This document shows, one piece after another, positions 823-11,337 of a stretch of 20,151 bases of DNA. Source of the DNA: a virus; the IMG/VR virus record IMGVR_UViG_3300027976_000277, positions 1 through 20,151 of that record. The stretch is one strand, 5' to 3'. Each line of letters begins with the position of its first letter. The stretch's first letter is position 1. Both the position numbers and the translations under genes were made by a program. The notes under the pieces are model-generated. The model saw only the letters and a program-made list of their open reading frames with translations. It made no database searches and was not told where the DNA came from.

Positions 823-1091
823 CTTTTACTTCCCTCCTCGATTAGCTTATTTATGCCACAATCCACATAGCCCTTTTTGTACGCTTCTGCAATCAGGGCT
901 TGGATTCTAGGATACAATATGTCATATATCAACTGCGAACTTATGAACTTATTTTTGTGCAGAAACTCCTCATTGATTAGCTGTCTGAGTGTTCCGAACG
1001 CAGCAGCTAATTCTGGCGAGCATTCCCCATCTATCTTATATAAATCCATAACACTACCCACCGCCTCCCTAAAGTCTTCTTCTTTACTCAT
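819..1091 (-). CDS. Hypothetical protein, 90 residues
   Basis: No family recognised. The product is mostly helical in appearance and acidic in the N-terminal half, with no Cys pairs, signal peptide or membrane segment. The start codon lies inside the end of the pentapeptide-repeat gene (8-nt overlap) and is preceded by AAGGAGG, so it is clearly set up for translation. It ends with an ATGA overlap to the 37-residue gene. Position in the early-type operon suggests an accessory or DNA-metabolism-related role, but nothing in the sequence proves one. Confidence 0.7.
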   Translation of the reverse strand: MSKEEDFREAVGSVMDLYKIDGECSPELAAAFGTLRQLINEEFLHKNKFISSQLIYDILYPRIQALIAEAYKKGYVDCGINKLIEEGSKR

Positions 1092-1614
1092 CTTTTACTT
1101 CCTCCTTAAGTACATAAACAACACCATCAATAGTAATTTCTTCAGGATTATTGGTCTGCTTTTCTGGTGTAATTATTAGCTTGCCATCTAAACATATTGG
1201 CTTTTGGTGGTTAGTTCGTCGTGGGGTTATTGATGAACACTTAATATCATTATATGAAACACAGAATGCGTAATAGCTAATGTCGCAAGCGTCAATGTTG
1301 TCAGCCTTGATATCGTGAGCGTCGATGTTGTTAGCCTTGATATCGAAAGCGTCGATGTTGTTAGCGTCAATGTTGTTAGCGTTGATATTGAAAGCGTTGA
1401 TGTCGTTAGCGTTGATGTTGTAAGCGTTGATGTTGTTAGCCTTGATATCGAAAGCGTCAATGTTGTTAGCGTCAATGTTGTAAGCGTTGATGTTGTTAGC
1501 CTTGATACTAGCATCTATTGATATTGAACATTCAAACGTAACGTTATCCTTAATGTTTAGTACACCATCTTTTATGTCTTTCTCTACTTCTGCTTGTGTC
1601 TTGTATATTTTCAT
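1084..1614 (-). CDS. Pentapeptide-repeat (beta-helix) protein
   Basis: 176 residues: a short N-terminal cap (about 1-38), then 15 perfect-register pentapeptides at residues 39-113 of the form A-x-[ND]-I-[NDKS], then a Cys-containing C-terminal domain (about 114-176). Ala at the inward position and Ile at the centre are what a right-handed quadrilateral beta-helix needs, so this belongs to the pentapeptide-repeat-like family. Some such proteins mimic DNA or act as scaffolds, and similar short repeat proteins with a conserved Tyr-Tyr-Ala-Phe-Cys boundary occur in phage early regions as I recall. The role here is unknown. The start is preceded by AAGGAGG and overlaps the stop of the 24-residue gene (TAATG). 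The repeat tract is nearly free of aromatic residues. Confidence 0.8.
   Translation of the reverse strand: MKIYKTQAEVEKDIKDGVLNIKDNVTFECSISIDASIKANNINAYNIDANNIDAFDIKANNINAYNINANDINAFNINANNIDANNIDAFDIKANNIDAHDIKADNIDACDISYYAFCVSYNDIKCSSITPRRTNHQKPICLDGKLIITPEKQTNNPEEITIDGVVYVLKEEVKDE
1276..1500 (-). repeat. 15-bp coding minisatellite, 15 units
   Basis: Fifteen adjacent 15-bp units encode the pentapeptide repeats of the gene at 1084-1614. On the plus strand the units read approximately gcgtcaatgttgtta. Several units are identical at DNA level, so the tract can expand or contract by 15 bp without a frameshift. Confidence 0.9.
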
Positions 1615-2593: not shown

Positions 2594-3106
2594 TTACACT
2601 TGCCTGCTTGGCTGAGCAAATTCTGGTAATTCTGGGTGTTTCCAATATAATCTTTTTTTTGTTTCTTTATCATAGTGCATTCCATATCCTTTCATAATTG
2701 GTGGTTTAAGTTCTGACATAGTTACAATGTTTGCTTCTAACTTATAGAGATATCTTCCAATCCCCCAATGGACTGCACACCGTTTCATTGAATTGCTGAG
2801 TCCGCCTTTAGTTGGCTCAATGTTTGTTTTGTCAGCTCCATCCCATTTAGTGATTGGTATTTCTCTAGTGTGTACTGTGATACCACAAAGTATTCCACCG
2901 TCAGGCGCTTCCTTGTATTCATTCGACCAGCCTTCTACACCAAAGACTTCATCTAAGCGGTCCATAATAGCCCTGTTAGTGATATAAGCTAATACTAATG
3001 CCCAATAGTTGCCGTTAGAGTTGCCGCTGTTTTGTACTCGCCATTCTATATCTTCTAAAAGAAAGGGTTCTTTTAGTTTGGTTTCTAATTCTCTAAAGTT
3101 TTCCAT
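2594..3106 (-). CDS. Rad52/DdrA-like single-strand annealing protein
   Basis: 170 residues. Family signs: a WRVQNSG segment near the N-terminus, RAIMDRLDEVFGVEGW in the middle (the family's conserved helix with Asp-Glu-Val-xGly), and KGGLSNSMKRCAVHWGIGRYLY in the C-terminal half (17 of these are diagnostic, ending in GIGRYLY). These are hallmarks of the Rad52/22 and DdrA annealing proteins, which bind single-stranded DNA as rings and pair complementary strands during phage recombination or replication. The frame is open upstream to 3157, but ATG 3106 is the better start: it shares a base with the upstream stop (TAATG), has AAGGA in front, and leaves a normal family N-terminus. No partner exonuclease is visible in this window. 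Confidence 0.85.
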   Translation of the reverse strand: MENFRELETKLKEPFLLEDIEWRVQNSGNSNGNYWALVLAYITNRAIMDRLDEVFGVEGWSNEYKEAPDGGILCGITVHTREIPITKWDGADKTNIEPTKGGLSNSMKRCAVHWGIGRYLYKLEANIVTMSELKPPIMKGYGMHYDKETKKRLYWKHPELPEFAQPSRQV

Positions 3107-3324
3107 TACTTGTCCTTTGCTTGTGAGTCGTAATCTGGCTCTGAATATGCTTCCCAAAGTTTTTCAACTTGAGCCTCTACTTCTTGCTCAATACGATTGC
3201 ATTGGCTGATTATGCAGTTAATGTCGTAGTCGTTAGTTTGTGATATAACCTCGTCATCAATTGTGGCAATCAGTGTATATCTAATATCTAGACCATCTCG
3301 ATAATTTAATATTCTATCTTCCAT
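3106..3324 (-). CDS. Hypothetical acidic protein, 72 residues
   Basis: No family recognised. The product is acidic, with an N-terminal part that looks beta-rich (Tyr-Thr-Leu-Ile-Ala-Thr) and a C-terminal helix rich in Glu and Gln. It starts inside the end of the 61-residue gene (11-nt overlap) and is coupled by TAATG to the Rad52-like gene, so it is probably expressed in a fixed ratio with it. An accessory role to the annealing protein is a guess from position only. Confidence 0.6.
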   Translation of the reverse strand: MEDRILNYRDGLDIRYTLIATIDDEVISQTNDYDINCIISQCNRIEQEVEAQVEKLWEAYSEPDYDSQAKDK

Positions 3325-3499
3325 TGCTATAACTCATTATATCGTCTAGCAATAAATCCTCAGCCATTTCTTCTAGCCAGCCTTCATCGTTTATCAAAAC
3401 ATCTAAACCATTTTGATACAAACTAGTTTCTTTGATATATTCCGCTGTTTCTCCAGCAGATAATAAACCATTATGATAATGTGATAATATTTTTTTCAT
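3314..3499 (-). CDS. Hypothetical acidic protein, 61 residues; first gene of early operon
   Basis: No family recognised. It is an acidic, helical-looking small protein with Leu- and Asp/Glu-rich C-terminal half. It is the first gene after the promoter at 3534-3562. Its leader ends in GGAGTGAACAATG, almost the same as the leader of the membrane-protein gene at 5429-5626, and the 10 nt before the start are complementary to the small RNA loop (5758-5767). First position and shared leader suggest a regulatory or early takeover role, but the protein itself gives no clue. Confidence 0.65.
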   Translation of the reverse strand: MKKILSHYHNGLLSAGETAEYIKETSLYQNGLDVLINDEGWLEEMAEDLLLDDIMSYSNGR

Positions 3500-3533
3500 T
3501 GTTCACTCCTTGTTTAATTGTTTCTACATTCTA

Positions 3534-3580: not shown

Positions 3581-3937
3581 TTAATTGTTCTTCAATAACC
3601 ATGACAAATATCTAGCCGGGTTCTTGCCTTCTTTTTCGGCAATTTTTGCTTGTTTAATAAAATATTCTATACCGCGTTGGCGTATTATTTTGGCATACCA
3701 ACCACTCATTCTGTCGTTAATTCCGCCAGTAAGATGTTTATAATCATCAATTATTAAATCTATATTTTTATTTGGTATTGTAGCTACAGCTGTTACAGCT
3801 GTTGTAACTAAAGTTACTTTTCCAGCTGTCAGCTGTTCTTCCAGCTGTTGTTTTTTTAAAATTTCTTGGGTTAAAAACACTTGACAGTCCTTATCCAACC
3901 GCCTATAATTTAAGTAACGCAAATCTTGGGTCGTCAC
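3581..3937 (-). CDS. Hypothetical protein, 118 residues, divergent from the plus-strand operon
   Basis: It starts at GTG 3937; in-frame stops lie upstream and no ATG fits. N-terminal part is basic and Gln/Leu-rich (about 1-35), the middle is Thr/Val/Ala-rich, and the C-terminal third is helical and ends in a Gly-Lys-Asn-Pro-Ala-Arg-Tyr-Leu-Ser-Trp-Leu-Leu segment. That ending resembles the tails of some replication-initiator or DnaD-like proteins, where a helix precedes a Lys-Asn-Pro motif, but no DNA-binding fold is certain. Divergent position next to a palindromic promoter region is typical of regulators or initiators. Its leader (about 87 nt) carries a repeat also found in its own coding start. 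The middle is encoded by a cluster of CAGCTG words. Confidence 0.6.
   Translation of the reverse strand: MTTQDLRYLNYRRLDKDCQVFLTQEILKKQQLEEQLTAGKVTLVTTAVTAVATIPNKNIDLIIDDYKHLTGGINDRMSGWYAKIIRQRGIEYFIKQAKIAEKEGKNPARYLSWLLKNN
3787..3847. repeat. Cluster of five CAGCTG palindromes
   Basis: CAGCTG occurs at 3787-3792, 3796-3801, 3823-3828, 3830-3835 and 3842-3847, with the inverted repeat GTAAC-TAAA-GTTAC between the second and third. The cluster lies inside the 118-residue gene and encodes parts of Thr-Ala-Val and Glu-Gln-Leu repeats. It could be chance, codon repetition, or an iterated protein-binding site. Confidence 0.5.
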
Positions 3938-4016
3938 TTTAATCGGTGGCGATTTTTTTTATTAGTTAATAACTCTGCAGAGTGTTTTTTGTTGACTACC
4001 TAGACGCAAATCTTGG
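3917..4016. repeat. 13-bp direct repeat flanking a leader
   Basis: The word acgcaaatcttgg occurs at 3917-3929 (inside the first codons of the 118-residue gene) and at 4004-4016 (near its promoter), 87 bp apart. The second copy lies within an inverted repeat (actacc 3995-4000, ggtagt 4015-4020). The palindrome actctgcagagt lies between at 3972-3983. This looks like a regulatory leader, possibly autoregulatory. Confidence 0.55.
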
Positions 4017-4110: not shown

Positions 4111-4422
4111 ATGATTGGATTGATTGTGACTATACAGCAAAAGTTTCAAAGACATCATAAATACTTCCCAAAAAAAGATTACATAAGCAAGGGTAAAATT
4201 GCTCGCATGTTTAGAAATCTACCCTGCAATATAGAGCTTATGCCAGAGCAAGAGCATAGAGCCTTGCATGGTAAGCTAAGAGAAACTGCCGGCGGCGTGC
4301 CTAACCATTTATATATGGCGCAGCAAATTGCCGATTGTTTTAATAGAGGTTGCACAAAAAGCAATTGTAAAATTGCAGTTGGTAAAATTGACCCTGCTAG
4401 CGAATATGAGGTGAACATATGA
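4111..4422 (+). CDS. Small HNH-like protein
   Basis: 103 residues. After a short N-terminal strand come His15-His16, then Asn40 in a Leu-Pro-Cys-Asn-Ile-Glu-Leu segment, then His49 and His53. The order HH...N...H...H over about 40 residues is the His-Me finger (HNH nuclease) signature, in a compact form without the zinc-binding Cys pairs. It could cut or nick DNA, or be a degenerate DNA-binding form. The C-terminal part (about 65-103) is different in style, with two Cys. No Shine-Dalgarno precedes ATG 4111; a GTG at 4126 is an alternative start. First gene of the only plus-strand operon, coupled by ATGA to the next gene. Confidence 0.6.
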   Translation: MIGLIVTIQQKFQRHHKYFPKKDYISKGKIARMFRNLPCNIELMPEQEHRALHGKLRETAGGVPNHLYMAQQIADCFNRGCTKSNCKIAVGKIDPASEYEVNI

Positions 4423-4595
4423 TATTTGACCCGATTGACCAGCTCGACATAATGAATGGTGAATTGCGAAATTTAAATGTAGATATAGAATTTGCATTTA
4501 GAGAATTGCAAAATATAACTAAAGACATACATAATTTAGAAAGATTACGCAAAAGTATCAAAGTCATGATTGAAGACCTGGAGAAAAGATTATGA
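4419..4595 (+). CDS. 58-residue coiled-coil-like protein
   Basis: Starts at ATG 4419 overlapping the previous stop (ATGA) with GAGGTG 5 nt upstream. The product is acidic at the N-terminus and then one long amphipathic helix rich in Leu, Ile, Glu, Asn and Lys, which suggests a coiled coil or oligomerisation helix. It ends in another ATGA overlap. No family recognised. It is likely a partner of the HNH-like protein because the three genes are strictly coupled. Confidence 0.6.
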   Translation: MIFDPIDQLDIMNGELRNLNVDIEFAFRELQNITKDIHNLERLRKSIKVMIEDLEKRL

Positions 4596-4806: not shown

Positions 4807-4891
4807 CGTCTTCTAATAGTAATGACATCATAACCCCGCCGATAAATATGCCAATAAATAGCCCTAGAATAAATCCTGTTAGATATTCCAT
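4787..4891 (-). CDS. 34-residue single-pass membrane peptide
   Basis: ATG 4891 shares a base with the stop of the transglycosylase gene (TAATG). The product has one hydrophobic helix (about residues 4-26) with Gly spaced every four residues (GFILGLFIGIFIGG), a glycine-zipper pattern that favours packing of helices in the membrane. A short acidic tail follows. Size, zipper and position behind a peptidoglycan hydrolase suggest a holin- or spanin-like helper, but no family is recognised. Confidence 0.55.
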   Translation of the reverse strand: MEYLTGFILGLFIGIFIGGVMMSLLLEDEQNPPL

Positions 4892-5376
4892 TACCACCAC
4901 CTGTGAGAATTCCAGAACGCTCTGGCGTTTTCCCAAGTGCCGTATCTATTCTGCATATATTTTGTAAAAAACGCATCTTGGCAAGCATAGTCACCTAATG
5001 CACAACCCATCTTTGAACAGGGCAAAGCTTGCCCCAGCCCACAAGCCCCTGAGCTTTTATTGACTGCGTTTGGGTTATTGCCAGACTCTTTTAGATATAT
5101 AAACATCTTTGCATCGCTAGGCGCTTGTGCAGGCGCTGTGACAGCTTTTTGTGCCTGTGCCTGTACTTTGGCAACCTCAACTATTCTAATAGCTTCTAGA
5201 CGGTCTAACTCGGCTTTATATTCTTTTGTACGGTCTGGAAATTTAATTGTTTGTTTTTGATATATGTTTTCTATATTGATGGCTACCTTAACTTGGTCTG
5301 CCTGAGCCACCTTAGGTGGGTAATTTGTTGTTACTAATGCCAATGCTATTGAAGTAAATACAATTGCTGGTTTCAT
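4891..5376 (-). CDS. Secreted lytic transglycosylase-like protein
   Basis: 161 residues. Residues 1-26 form a signal peptide or membrane anchor (hydrophobic core 4-16, then an Ala-Gln-Ala site near 26). A charged helical, Ala/Gln-rich linker follows (about 50-86), then a small catalytic domain (about 88-161) with Glu97 in the ESGNNP motif, a GACGLGQ motif and a final Trp-Trp. This is the lysozyme-like, C-terminal transglycosylase fold seen in Gram-positive Apf/Rpf-type proteins, which cuts the glycan strands of peptidoglycan. Four Cys (112, 120, 125, 132) could form two disulphides outside the cell. It lies apart from the amidase cassette. No Shine-Dalgarno is close to ATG 5376; an AAAGGA lies about 50 nt upstream. 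Confidence 0.8.
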   Translation of the reverse strand: MKPAIVFTSIALALVTTNYPPKVAQADQVKVAINIENIYQKQTIKFPDRTKEYKAELDRLEAIRIVEVAKVQAQAQKAVTAPAQAPSDAKMFIYLKESGNNPNAVNKSSGACGLGQALPCSKMGCALGDYACQDAFFTKYMQNRYGTWENARAFWNSHRWW

Positions 5377-5428: not shown

Positions 5429-5626
5429 TTATTTTAGATTACGGTATATATATACTACTGCTGATACTATAAGTAAATAGCCAACAAACTTGATTACCAC
5501 TTCTGGTAGCGTAATATAGTTTATTATTGACATACCTACTAAAGCTAGACTAATAGATATTAGTAAATTCAATGCTCTAGATAGCCATATCTTAATTTTA
5601 TTTGTTGTTGCTTTGACTTGTTTCAT
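5429..5626 (-). CDS. Two-helix membrane protein, 65 residues
   Basis: Basic N-terminal 13 residues followed by two hydrophobic helices (about 14-36 and 43-61) and a short basic tail, so both ends are probably in the cytoplasm. Size and topology fit a small holin or another phage membrane protein. It is the first gene after the promoter at 5663-5692 and precedes the secreted transglycosylase, which supports a lysis or envelope role. The leader ends in GGAGTGAACAATG; the 11 nt just before the ATG are complementary to the small RNA loop. Confidence 0.65.
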   Translation of the reverse strand: MKQVKATTNKIKIWLSRALNLLISISLALVGMSIINYITLPEVVIKFVGYLLIVSAVVYIYRNLK

Positions 5627-5662
5627 TGTTCACTCCATTTGTTTATTTAATCTAACAATACC

Positions 5663-5692
5663 AGTATAGCATAAGTTGAATGGTATTGTCAA
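5663..5692 (-). promoter_or_regulatory. Sigma70-type promoter for the 5626-4787 operon
   Basis: Minus-strand TTGACA (5687-5692), an 18-bp spacer and TATACT (5663-5668). Its -35 overlaps the -35 of the divergent small-RNA promoter, so the two should compete for polymerase. Confidence 0.7.
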
Positions 5693-5714
5693 TACTTTTA
5701 TAAAATGCTATGAT
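5686..5714 (+). promoter_or_regulatory. Sigma70-type promoter of the small RNA
   Basis: TTGTCA (5686-5691), exactly 17 bp, then TATGAT (5709-5714). Transcription should start near 5721, right at the base of the 11-bp stem at 5723. Confidence 0.75.
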
Positions 5715-5720
5715 GCAAAC

Positions 5721-5817
5721 ACCAAGCAAGAGGGAATGTTTTATCTCCTAAGGTATGTGTTCACTCCACCTCTTGCTTGTATAAAAAAACACCGCCTGAA
5801 CTATGACGGTGTTTTTT
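5721..5817 (+). ncRNA. Free-standing small RNA with two anti-Shine-Dalgarno segments
   Basis: A good promoter ends just before it and a strong terminator ends it, giving a transcript of about 97 nt with no plus-strand gene after it. A perfect 11-bp stem (5723-5733 with 5769-5779) closes a 35-nt loop. The loop holds UUUAUCUCCU (5740-5749), complementary to the ribosome-binding site of the membrane gene at 2276-2488, and UGUUCACUCCA (5758-5768), complementary over 11 nt to that of the gene at 5429-5626 and 10 nt to that of 3314-3499. A trans-acting antisense RNA that blocks translation is the natural reading. It could instead titrate a protein that binds these sites. No known RNA family recognised. 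Confidence 0.7.
5784..5817. terminator. Bidirectional Rho-independent terminator
   Basis: A perfect 11-bp stem (5784-5794 with 5807-5817; core CACCG/CGGTG) with a run of A on the left and of T on the right, so it can stop transcription in both directions. It ends the small RNA on the plus strand and the late/lysis operon on the minus strand. Confidence 0.9.
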
Positions 5818-5891
5818 CTAATAAGTTTTGATTGACGCTCGTAGTTATGAATTTGTCGACATAGGTGCATAGTTCAATATAATCATAAGCC

Positions 5892-5972
5892 TTATTGGCA
5901 GGCTTCGCAAGCGGCAAGTTCGTCAGGGTCTATTGGGCAGACTTGGGCAAGAAAGTCCTCCTCTTCATTCAC
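5892..5972 (-). CDS. Possible 26-residue acidic Cys peptide
   Basis: A GTG at 5972 overlaps the TGA of the holin candidate (GTGA), the same coupling used elsewhere here. The frame ends at 5892. The product begins with an acidic run (Asn-Glu-Glu-Glu-Asp) and has Cys12, Cys22 and Cys25 (CPIDPDELAACEACQ), a possible metal site. There is no separate Shine-Dalgarno. It is last in the lysis cassette. It may be a small regulator or not a gene. Confidence 0.4.
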   Translation of the reverse strand: MNEEEDFLAQVCPIDPDELAACEACQ

Positions 5973-9063: not shown

Positions 9064-11337
9064 TTAAGATGGTGCTATTGGGTTATTTGTTACTTGCAGG
9101 GCTTCTAAGTTTCTATTTATTTGCTCAACTCTTTTATTGACATCAATTGCTATTGTTGATGCATAAACTGTTGCGGTGTCTTCATTATAATCTATTTTTT
9201 GTATTTGCATTCTTAAGCTGCTTAAATTGTAAATATTAAAATCCCAGTATGCCTCATCCCAACGCCCAACATCCCAGCTAGATAGCCCTACTTGCTGAGT
9301 TATATTTCTAACAGCTATAACATCACCTACCTGCAAACTTTCAATATCATAGCCAAGCTCTTGATTATTGTTGCTATCAAGTATAGTCAAATTTACTCTT
9401 AGCTCTGGCTGGCTTCTTGTGGCTATTATATTATTGCCAATTAAGTCGGCTGTTGCACTTGTGGTCACTCTAGTGTCAGAATATTTTACTGACTTGACGC
9501 CATACTCTTGAATGCTATTAGCGTCAATGTATTTCTTGTAAAAGTTTACACCAGCTCCAGTATCTCCGCCTGTAAAATATAAAGTATTTACAATGTCTTC
9601 GGTACGCTTTTCAAATTTTGCGTCAATAATGTCTTTTTCTAAACTAAATATATGCTCAGGCTCATCAGACTTTTCCTTGAATTTTAATTCATTTGTGCTT
9701 TGATTAATATACCAATACCAATTTTCAGGCGATATGTTTTTTAAGATATTAATTGCTTCTAATAGAGTTTGCACATTAAATGTATAGTCAACAAGAGTTT
9801 CGGTCGGCACATATCCACCATTAGCATCAGCAGGCACGCCATCTGGCAAATATAACAAATCAAAATATAATGCTCTATAAGTAGTGGTAAATGCCATTGC
9901 TGTGCCTGTGTTATTGGTATTGTTTTCAGCTCTATATAAATTGCCAACTTGTGGTGAGCTTATAATATCGCCTGCACCAGCACTTCTAAATTGCACTGTA
10001 TCGCCACTAATAGAACCGCCAGCCCAATATACAAAATAATAAGAAACGCCCGCTGTTAATGTTACAGAAGTTGCAAATCTAAAAGCGGTATATTCTAAAT
10101 CTGTATTAACAAAATCTGTGCCATCAGAAGTTGCGACGAGTGTATTCCCAACTCCTAAATCATAGCTAGTTGAACCGCTTATAACAGTCAAAGTGTCTAA
10201 TGACGGGTCACCTCTATAAATATAAATAGGCTCATAGCCATCACCCTTTGCAAAAACTTGTATTGTATCTATTACTATTGTGCTAGCTGGTGTAAATATT
10301 TGTGCGTGGGCAGTACTCCATGTGCCTAATGATGTTGTTATACTTTTTGTTGGTTGATTTATTAATGGCTCCAAGCTAGACAATGGCTCAGTTAGCAAGC
10401 CACCTCTTGATTGATAGTCAATTAAAAAATTACTTAAAATCGTAGTAGGGTCTTGAGCTGTATATACAGCAGTTGTATTGCCACCATATTCGTAAATAAC
10501 AAAATATAAGTCATCAGCAGCTACGCTAGTAGCTCCAATCCAGCTAGTACCAGCAAAAATATCTGTATAAACCTGACCGCTAGCATAAGGGTTTGTAGAA
10601 GTAGCATGCACTTTAACTAAGCCATAACTATTAAAAGTAGTGCTGTTATTGCCGTAAATTTGTATATAATAATTTTTTGTACTAACAAGTGCAACAGTTT
10701 CTGTAAAATTGACTTTCAACACTTGAGCTGAAAAAGCACCTGAATAGCTTGCAGAACCATATGCTAAATCAGGGTCAGTATTTATATCAGGAGTTGCCCC
10801 TACCCTCTCTTTTATATAGACCGTAAATGTGTTTAATCCTGCACTACCAGAAGCCATAATATCAACAGAGCTAATGGTTTTATCAGCCGCTAGTGTAAAT
10901 GTCTGTATAACTGTATAAATATTATATCCCTGCGTCGATTGGCTACCAATATTATAAGTTTTGTTATTTACAAGCTGACTAACATAGGCTGTGTCGCCAG
11001 CTTCAACAATATAATCATTTAGCTCAGCACCAAAGCCAAGAATTGTAACCTCAATTTTGTCATCTTTATAAATAGGGTTATAGGCAGATATATAGCCTTG
11101 AAATATAGATTGCCCATTTGGTTCTTCATTATCAAAGCAATATACAATTACTTTATAACCGAAGCTAACATCTGTACCTTCGCCATAGTCGCCTGCATCT
11201 CTGGCAAGTAATAATTTTAATTGACCGCCAGCACTGTTAATTTCATTATTAAACTGTATATCGCTGACTACATCTTTCCAAGTAGTTAGATAACCGCCTT
11301 CTTGATTATAAACTTTGACTTCGTAATATTTAGCCAT
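9064..11337 (-). CDS. Tail hub (Tal/gp27-like) protein with two inserted domains
   Basis: 757 residues. The N-terminal part (about 1-125) and the C-terminal part (from about 515) look like the siphophage tail-associated hub that closes the tail tube at the tip; TLLEAINILKNISPENWYW is a typical hub segment. Two beta-rich insertions (about 130-290 and 327-505) interrupt the hub. Each looks like a jelly-roll carbohydrate-binding or adhesion domain (alternating Tyr, Ile, Val, Thr). No peptidase or lysozyme motif is seen, unlike many Tal proteins. It starts with a TAATG overlap to Dit. Confidence 0.75.
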   Translation of the reverse strand: MAKYYEVKVYNQEGGYLTTWKDVVSDIQFNNEINSAGGQLKLLLARDAGDYGEGTDVSFGYKVIVYCFDNEEPNGQSIFQGYISAYNPIYKDDKIEVTILGFGAELNDYIVEAGDTAYVSQLVNNKTYNIGSQSTQGYNIYTVIQTFTLAADKTISSVDIMASGSAGLNTFTVYIKERVGATPDINTDPDLAYGSASYSGAFSAQVLKVNFTETVALVSTKNYYIQIYGNNSTTFNSYGLVKVHATSTNPYASGQVYTDIFAGTSWIGATSVAADDLYFVIYEYGGNTTAVYTAQDPTTILSNFLIDYQSRGGLLTEPLSSLEPLINQPTKSITTSLGTWSTAHAQIFTPASTIVIDTIQVFAKGDGYEPIYIYRGDPSLDTLTVISGSTSYDLGVGNTLVATSDGTDFVNTDLEYTAFRFATSVTLTAGVSYYFVYWAGGSISGDTVQFRSAGAGDIISSPQVGNLYRAENNTNNTGTAMAFTTTYRALYFDLLYLPDGVPADANGGYVPTETLVDYTFNVQTLLEAINILKNISPENWYWYINQSTNELKFKEKSDEPEHIFSLEKDIIDAKFEKRTEDIVNTLYFTGGDTGAGVNFYKKYIDANSIQEYGVKSVKYSDTRVTTSATADLIGNNIIATRSQPELRVNLTILDSNNNQELGYDIESLQVGDVIAVRNITQQVGLSSWDVGRWDEAYWDFNIYNLSSLRMQIQKIDYNEDTATVYASTIAIDVNKRVEQINRNLEALQVTNNPIAPS

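Follow-up and report, generated by a model that had tools for sequence, protein, structure and literature searches.

A predicted small RNA of a probable Saccharibacteria phage, with a loop complementary to ribosome-binding sites of phage genes

Known RNAs directed at ribosome-binding sites

In P1/P7, the C4 antisense RNA blocks translation through loop complementarity around the ribosome-binding site (RBS) of a phage gene, the target being the ant (antirepressor) mRNA (PMC12197685, review). DicF RNA of the Qin prophage, which belongs to the dicB operon and is stabilised by Hfq, is short, pairs with mRNA and prevents translation, with the host gene ftsZ as its target (PMC12197685). The streptococcal csRNAs, which are chromosomal and under the control of the CiaR regulator, carry unpaired anti-SD and anti-start sequences in a region between two hairpins, together with a terminator. 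They are predicted to act on several translation start regions, and a block of translation initiation was inferred (PMC3091779).

We analysed a virus record of 20,151 bases, the whole of which is called the window below. Its genes include those for capsid, tape-measure-like, amidase and Rad52-family proteins. The relatives of a transglycosylase-like protein (4891-5376) occur mostly in MAGs labelled Candidatus Saccharibacteria, and therefore the host is probably a member of Saccharibacteria, as judged from this one domain. In the open-access papers searched, we found no description of a small RNA in phages of Saccharibacteria.

The window contains a predicted small RNA (sRNA) of about 100 nt. 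This predicted RNA resembles the C4 RNA in that a phage encodes it and its loop is complementary to a phage RBS. It departs from the C4 RNA in having a predicted promoter and terminator of its own, in its divergence from one neighbouring target and in matching as many as three separate genes; it also has no Rfam match, and no antirepressor was found among the predicted target genes using Pfam and PHROGs. With the csRNAs it shares an unpaired anti-SD and anti-start sequence (segment 2 of the loop), but it is phage-encoded, carries the anti-RBS sequence within a hairpin loop and probably resides in Saccharibacteria. Like the short prophage RNA DicF, the window sRNA would repress by mRNA pairing, but it is predicted to be autonomous and to have phage genes as targets. 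With somewhat better than even odds, the window sRNA would work like the known anti-RBS sRNAs. It stands outside every Rfam family; the Rfam scan of the window gave no family at the gathering score, and a permissive scan gave chance-level matches only.

Promoter, fold and terminator of the sRNA gene

The sRNA promoter on the plus strand (5686-5714) consists of TTGTCA (5686-5691), a 17-nt spacer and the extended -10 element TGcTATGAT (TATGAT, 5709-5714), giving 10 of 12 matches plus the TG. The predicted RNA (5721-5819, +) begins about 7 bases past the -10 element, with some uncertainty in the start (5718-5722). Its minimum free energy is -33.1 kcal/mol, and its folding stability exceeds that of shuffled sequences by 5.7 standard deviations (z = -5.7). 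An 11-bp stem, formed by the 5' arm CAAGCAAGAGG (5723-5733) and the 3' arm CCTCTTGCTTG (5769-5779), closes a 35-nt loop and is followed by a strong intrinsic terminator (5785-5817, +). The loop was divided post hoc, with the data already seen, into segment 1 (GTTTTATCTCCTA, 5738-5750), part of which is buried in an inner hairpin, and segment 2 (GTATGTGTTCACTCCA, 5753-5768), which is mostly unpaired.

The promoter of gene 5429-5626 is found on the minus strand at 5663-5692 (TTGACA 5692-5687, an 18-nt spacer and TATACT 5668-5663; 11 of 12 matches). Its -35 element overlaps that of the sRNA, and since both promoters have this position in common, the two genes are divergent. Since T-rich sequence is present on the minus strand as well, the terminator probably works in both directions and also serves the convergent late/lysis operon. 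The possibility of a regulatory leader was ruled out, as no plus-strand gene lies downstream before this convergent operon.

A scan for a promoter, a stem of at least 9 bp and a terminator returned the sRNA locus as the sole match within the window, and only one other locus among all those retrieved until then. The promoter and terminator signals of a discrete transcript are thus present in the sequence, and we consider it very likely that this is a genuine sRNA gene. An alternative is that the hairpin is simply the terminator region of the convergent late operon, with a promoter and loop matches that arose by chance and no sRNA function. The T-rich tracts on both strands, the position just where the lysis genes end and the lack of a known sRNA homologue fit this explanation. 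However, promoter, stem and terminator stand in tandem in an intergenic region, the z-score is that given above, and every match of at least 9 nt falls on an RBS, so that we regard it as improbable.

No homologue of the sRNA was found by blastn against phages or plasmids, by the stem pattern or among the relatives retrieved, and a two-motif pattern gave five matches, all without the corresponding stem or terminator. In the blastn search against phages, only the minus-strand promoter region (5663-5706) resembled a known sequence, with about 91% identity over 44 nt to Staphylococcus Kayvirus at the start of a DNA polymerase gene. Relatives sought through gene 5429-5626 were not found, and the window capsid had no match in the records of the first relatives retrieved.

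Complementarity of the loop to ribosome-binding sites

The three complementarities claimed by the sequence-only reading are all exact and lie where it had placed them. Positions 5758-5768 are antisense to the RBS of gene 5429-5626 (5627-5637, -) over 11 nt (TGGAGTGAACA, then ATG) and to that of gene 3314-3499 (3500-3509, -) over 10 nt, while positions 5740-5749 are antisense to the RBS of gene 2276-2488 (2492-2501, -; AGGAGATAAA) over 10 nt. On both strands of the 20-kb window, loop antisense matches of at least 9 nt were found at these three RBSs only. The list of targets was nevertheless incomplete, since it overlooked gene 4419-4595 (+), whose RBS and start (GGTGAACATATG, 4410-4421) can form 12 base pairs with segment 2, G-U among them, from the SD through the AUG. 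For genes 5429-5626 and 3314-3499 the pairing extends up to one base before the AUG. With the accessibility of both partners taken into account, the energies were -10.6 kcal/mol for gene 3314-3499, -9.5 for 5429-5626, -8.3 for 4419-4595 and -6.6 for 2276-2488.

Gene 5429-5626 (-), located upstream of the transglycosylase-like gene, encodes 65 aa with two hydrophobic stretches, a membrane protein by inspection. Gene 3314-3499 (-) encodes a 61-aa acidic protein and heads an early operon that continues with gene 3106-3324 and the Rad52-family gene. Neither product had a family match.

Three sites of at least 10 nt were obtained by chance with P = 0.0011 in dinucleotide shuffles of the loop; in loops that retained the TCTCCT and CACTCC cores, P was 0.010. 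Three sites at or below -8 kcal/mol, with accessibility included, occurred in 1.7% of the dinucleotide shuffles (P = 0.017) and in 4.5% of the core-kept loops (P = 0.045). On the laxest measure, four sites at or below -6.5 kcal/mol, 13.7% of the core-kept loops did as well (P = 0.14). The comparison with random anti-SD loops proposed in the sequence-only reading was hence passed narrowly (P = 0.01-0.05), except on this last measure.

The loop was then compared with the 35 RBSs of the window and with a background of 534 gene starts from related phages and host contigs, gene starts being assigned by simple rules. Segment 2 (UGUUCACUCC) forms at least 8 Watson-Crick pairs with 3 of the 35 window RBSs vs 1 of the 534 background ones (p = 0.0008), and the RBS motif GTGAACA is nearly missing outside the RBSs of the window. 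Segment 1 (UUUAUCUCCU) matches over at least 10 nt at 1/35 and 5/534, respectively (p = 0.32), and all five background RBSs that reach -8 kcal/mol or lower against the loop do so through segment 1. It was claimed previously that the matches extend beyond the common SD core, which holds for segment 2. Because the RBSs of unrelated phages match it equally often, segment 1 is a generic anti-SD sequence and the match at gene 2276-2488 is probably not specific; this gene, to which a partly buried segment would have to pair, is not supported as a specific target. The predicted pairing of segment 2, in turn, is specific to this phage and exceeds generic anti-SD complementarity.

It should be noted that genes 3314-3499 and 5429-5626 have leaders that are alike in promoter, spacing and RBS, and that may descend from one module. 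Owing to this similarity, their matches are not the two independent ones that had been counted, and the evidence is closer to two targets. With the similar leaders counted once, segment 2 gave p = 0.045 on a measure that allows G-U pairs.

These figures bear on a second explanation, in which the sRNA is real and its loop is a generic anti-SD sequence that pairs with many purine-rich RBSs, mainly in host mRNAs, the matches to phage genes being partly coincidence. The complementarity of segment 1 to many unrelated phage RBSs (the five described above) agrees with it, as do the core-kept loops that score similarly in 1-14% of cases. We consider it unlikely as a whole, given that segment 2 goes beyond the SD core at the three window RBSs, including that of the divergent neighbour gene.

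Based on the above results, we suggest that the window encodes a phage antisense sRNA of about 100 nt that blocks translation initiation via segment 2, and give this reading a probability of roughly 0.6. Transcription of the sRNA would lead away from gene 5429-5626, starting at the promoter that overlaps the gene's own in the -35 element. Segment 2 would then pair in the cell with the SD region of this gene to the base before the AUG. The similar leader of gene 3314-3499, in the early operon, and the RBS of gene 4419-4595 would be bound likewise. Covering the SD-to-start region in this way would prevent ribosome binding, and translation of the small proteins would be lowered together. Segment 1 may add weak contacts with gene 2276-2488 or with host mRNAs. 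A plausible purpose is the timing of expression, the membrane and early genes being held low until they are needed. The trans-acting antisense regulator foreseen in the sequence-only reading is accordingly retained as the best reading for segment 2 only, with genes 5429-5626, 3314-3499 and probably 4419-4595 as targets. Independent support for it comes from the cross-phage controls and from a second sRNA family with a like arrangement in related phages.

The repeated TGTTCACTCCA could also be viewed as a DNA operator that lies downstream of three promoters and binds a phage repressor, with the RNA complementarity as a by-product. It is indeed repeated near three promoters, at about +20 to +47 from the predicted starts. 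However, TGTTCACTCCA is not palindromic, it occupies exactly the SD-to-ATG interval in the genes and an open hairpin loop in the sRNA, and a partial motif recurs at the RBS of gene 4419, where no promoter is adjacent. The related phages described below, moreover, have another RBS motif, which matches another RNA. We find this explanation very hard to credit.

A second predicted sRNA in related phages

A second, unrelated sRNA was predicted in 12 viral contigs of related phages (L060-L071), two of which (L065 and L070) duplicate L060 in the sRNA region, and also in L035-L038. It came to light in a search of relatives for promoter-to-terminator transcripts, on re-reading an sRNA-like stem in L038 whose -10 element proved to fall in the supposed loop. 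The sRNA has its own promoter and a 41-nt core, GTAGAG(A/G)TTTCTTTGTCGTTACTCTAC(G/A)CTTAACTCCTTTC, that hardly varies; the terminator stems, compared by eye, differ by paired changes. Examples are located at 3235-3320 (+) in L061, 3306-3391 (-) in L064 and 3245-3340 (-) in L071.

At the divergent neighbour gene, which is HIRAN/nuclease-like by inspection, the RBS is complementary to the tail of this sRNA, TTAACTCCTT. Of the 10 loci with a scorable neighbour, 7 show a match of 9-10 nt, and in most loci the neighbour RBS is one of the two best-ranked within its locus. L062, L063 and L067 are exceptions, with no match to the neighbour RBS in L062 and L063. The neighbour genes are mostly homologous, so the matches do not represent 12 independent events. 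RBSs with AGGAGTTA make up 10 of 187 in the L060-L071 phages vs 1 of 461 in phages and hosts without that sRNA; plain AAGGAG RBSs showed no enrichment in these phages.

In the three contigs scanned (L064, L067 and L071), no Rfam match was obtained at the locus, and the sRNA is apparently undescribed. It looks viral, as it occurs in none of 393 genomes from the class to which a Saccharibacteria genome belongs. In L071, an Rfam match to tmRNA over only 82 nt (10031-10112, +) and a tRNA (10252-10325, +) were also observed.

Like the window sRNA, this RNA has its own promoter and terminator and a CUCC stretch, and is divergent from a gene with a matched RBS. Where the window sRNA has a large loop, however, this RNA has a short hairpin followed by an anti-SD tail that is single-stranded, and its sequence is unrelated: the core GTAGAGRTTTCTTTGTCGTTACTCTACRCTTAACTCCTTTC is not present around the window sRNA, and AAGGAGTTA has zero occurrences on either strand of the window. 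At the level of predicted genes, two unrelated RNAs each face RBSs bearing their own complement. Predicted pairing of a like kind between sRNA and RBS in relatives also speaks against a merely generic loop in the window sRNA.

More tentatively, and with the odds rather against it, phages of Saccharibacteria might use private RBS codes, in which each lineage has its own sRNA together with a few genes whose RBS extension matches it, namely GTGAACA in the window and AGGAGTTA in L060-L071. Such a set would be a small translational regulon built around the divergent target gene. If the proposed anti-RBS action is real, phages of these tiny, hard-to-culture parasitic bacteria would control early or membrane genes by anti-RBS RNAs, and the matched RBS extension would allow simple prediction of sRNA targets from metagenomic contigs alone.

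Several other features were recorded. The protein encoded at 1084-1614 (-) of the window has pentapeptide-like repeats (NIDANNIDAF...). A short conserved peptide (5889-5966, -) follows the holin-like gene, and its end resembles CPIDPxELAxCEACQ; a peptide of this type occupies the equivalent position in L002, L003 and L004, being kept across related phages in which the flanking DNA differs. At 3881-3960 (+), a perfect promoter (TTGACA-17-TATAAT) precedes a leader of about 45 nt and a terminator (GTCACTTTAATCGGTGGCGATTTTTTTT), which may represent a second short RNA or an attenuator before the plus-strand genes. ACGCAAATCTTGG is found at 3917-3929 and repeated at 4004-4016; this repeat is also present in L035/L037, but apparently within a gene there, and was therefore set aside as a candidate. 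In the related phage L003, a promoter (TTGACA/TAGAGT), the direct repeat ATGCAAGC and a terminator at 4829-4905 (+), directly followed by a gene, may constitute another short RNA or leader.
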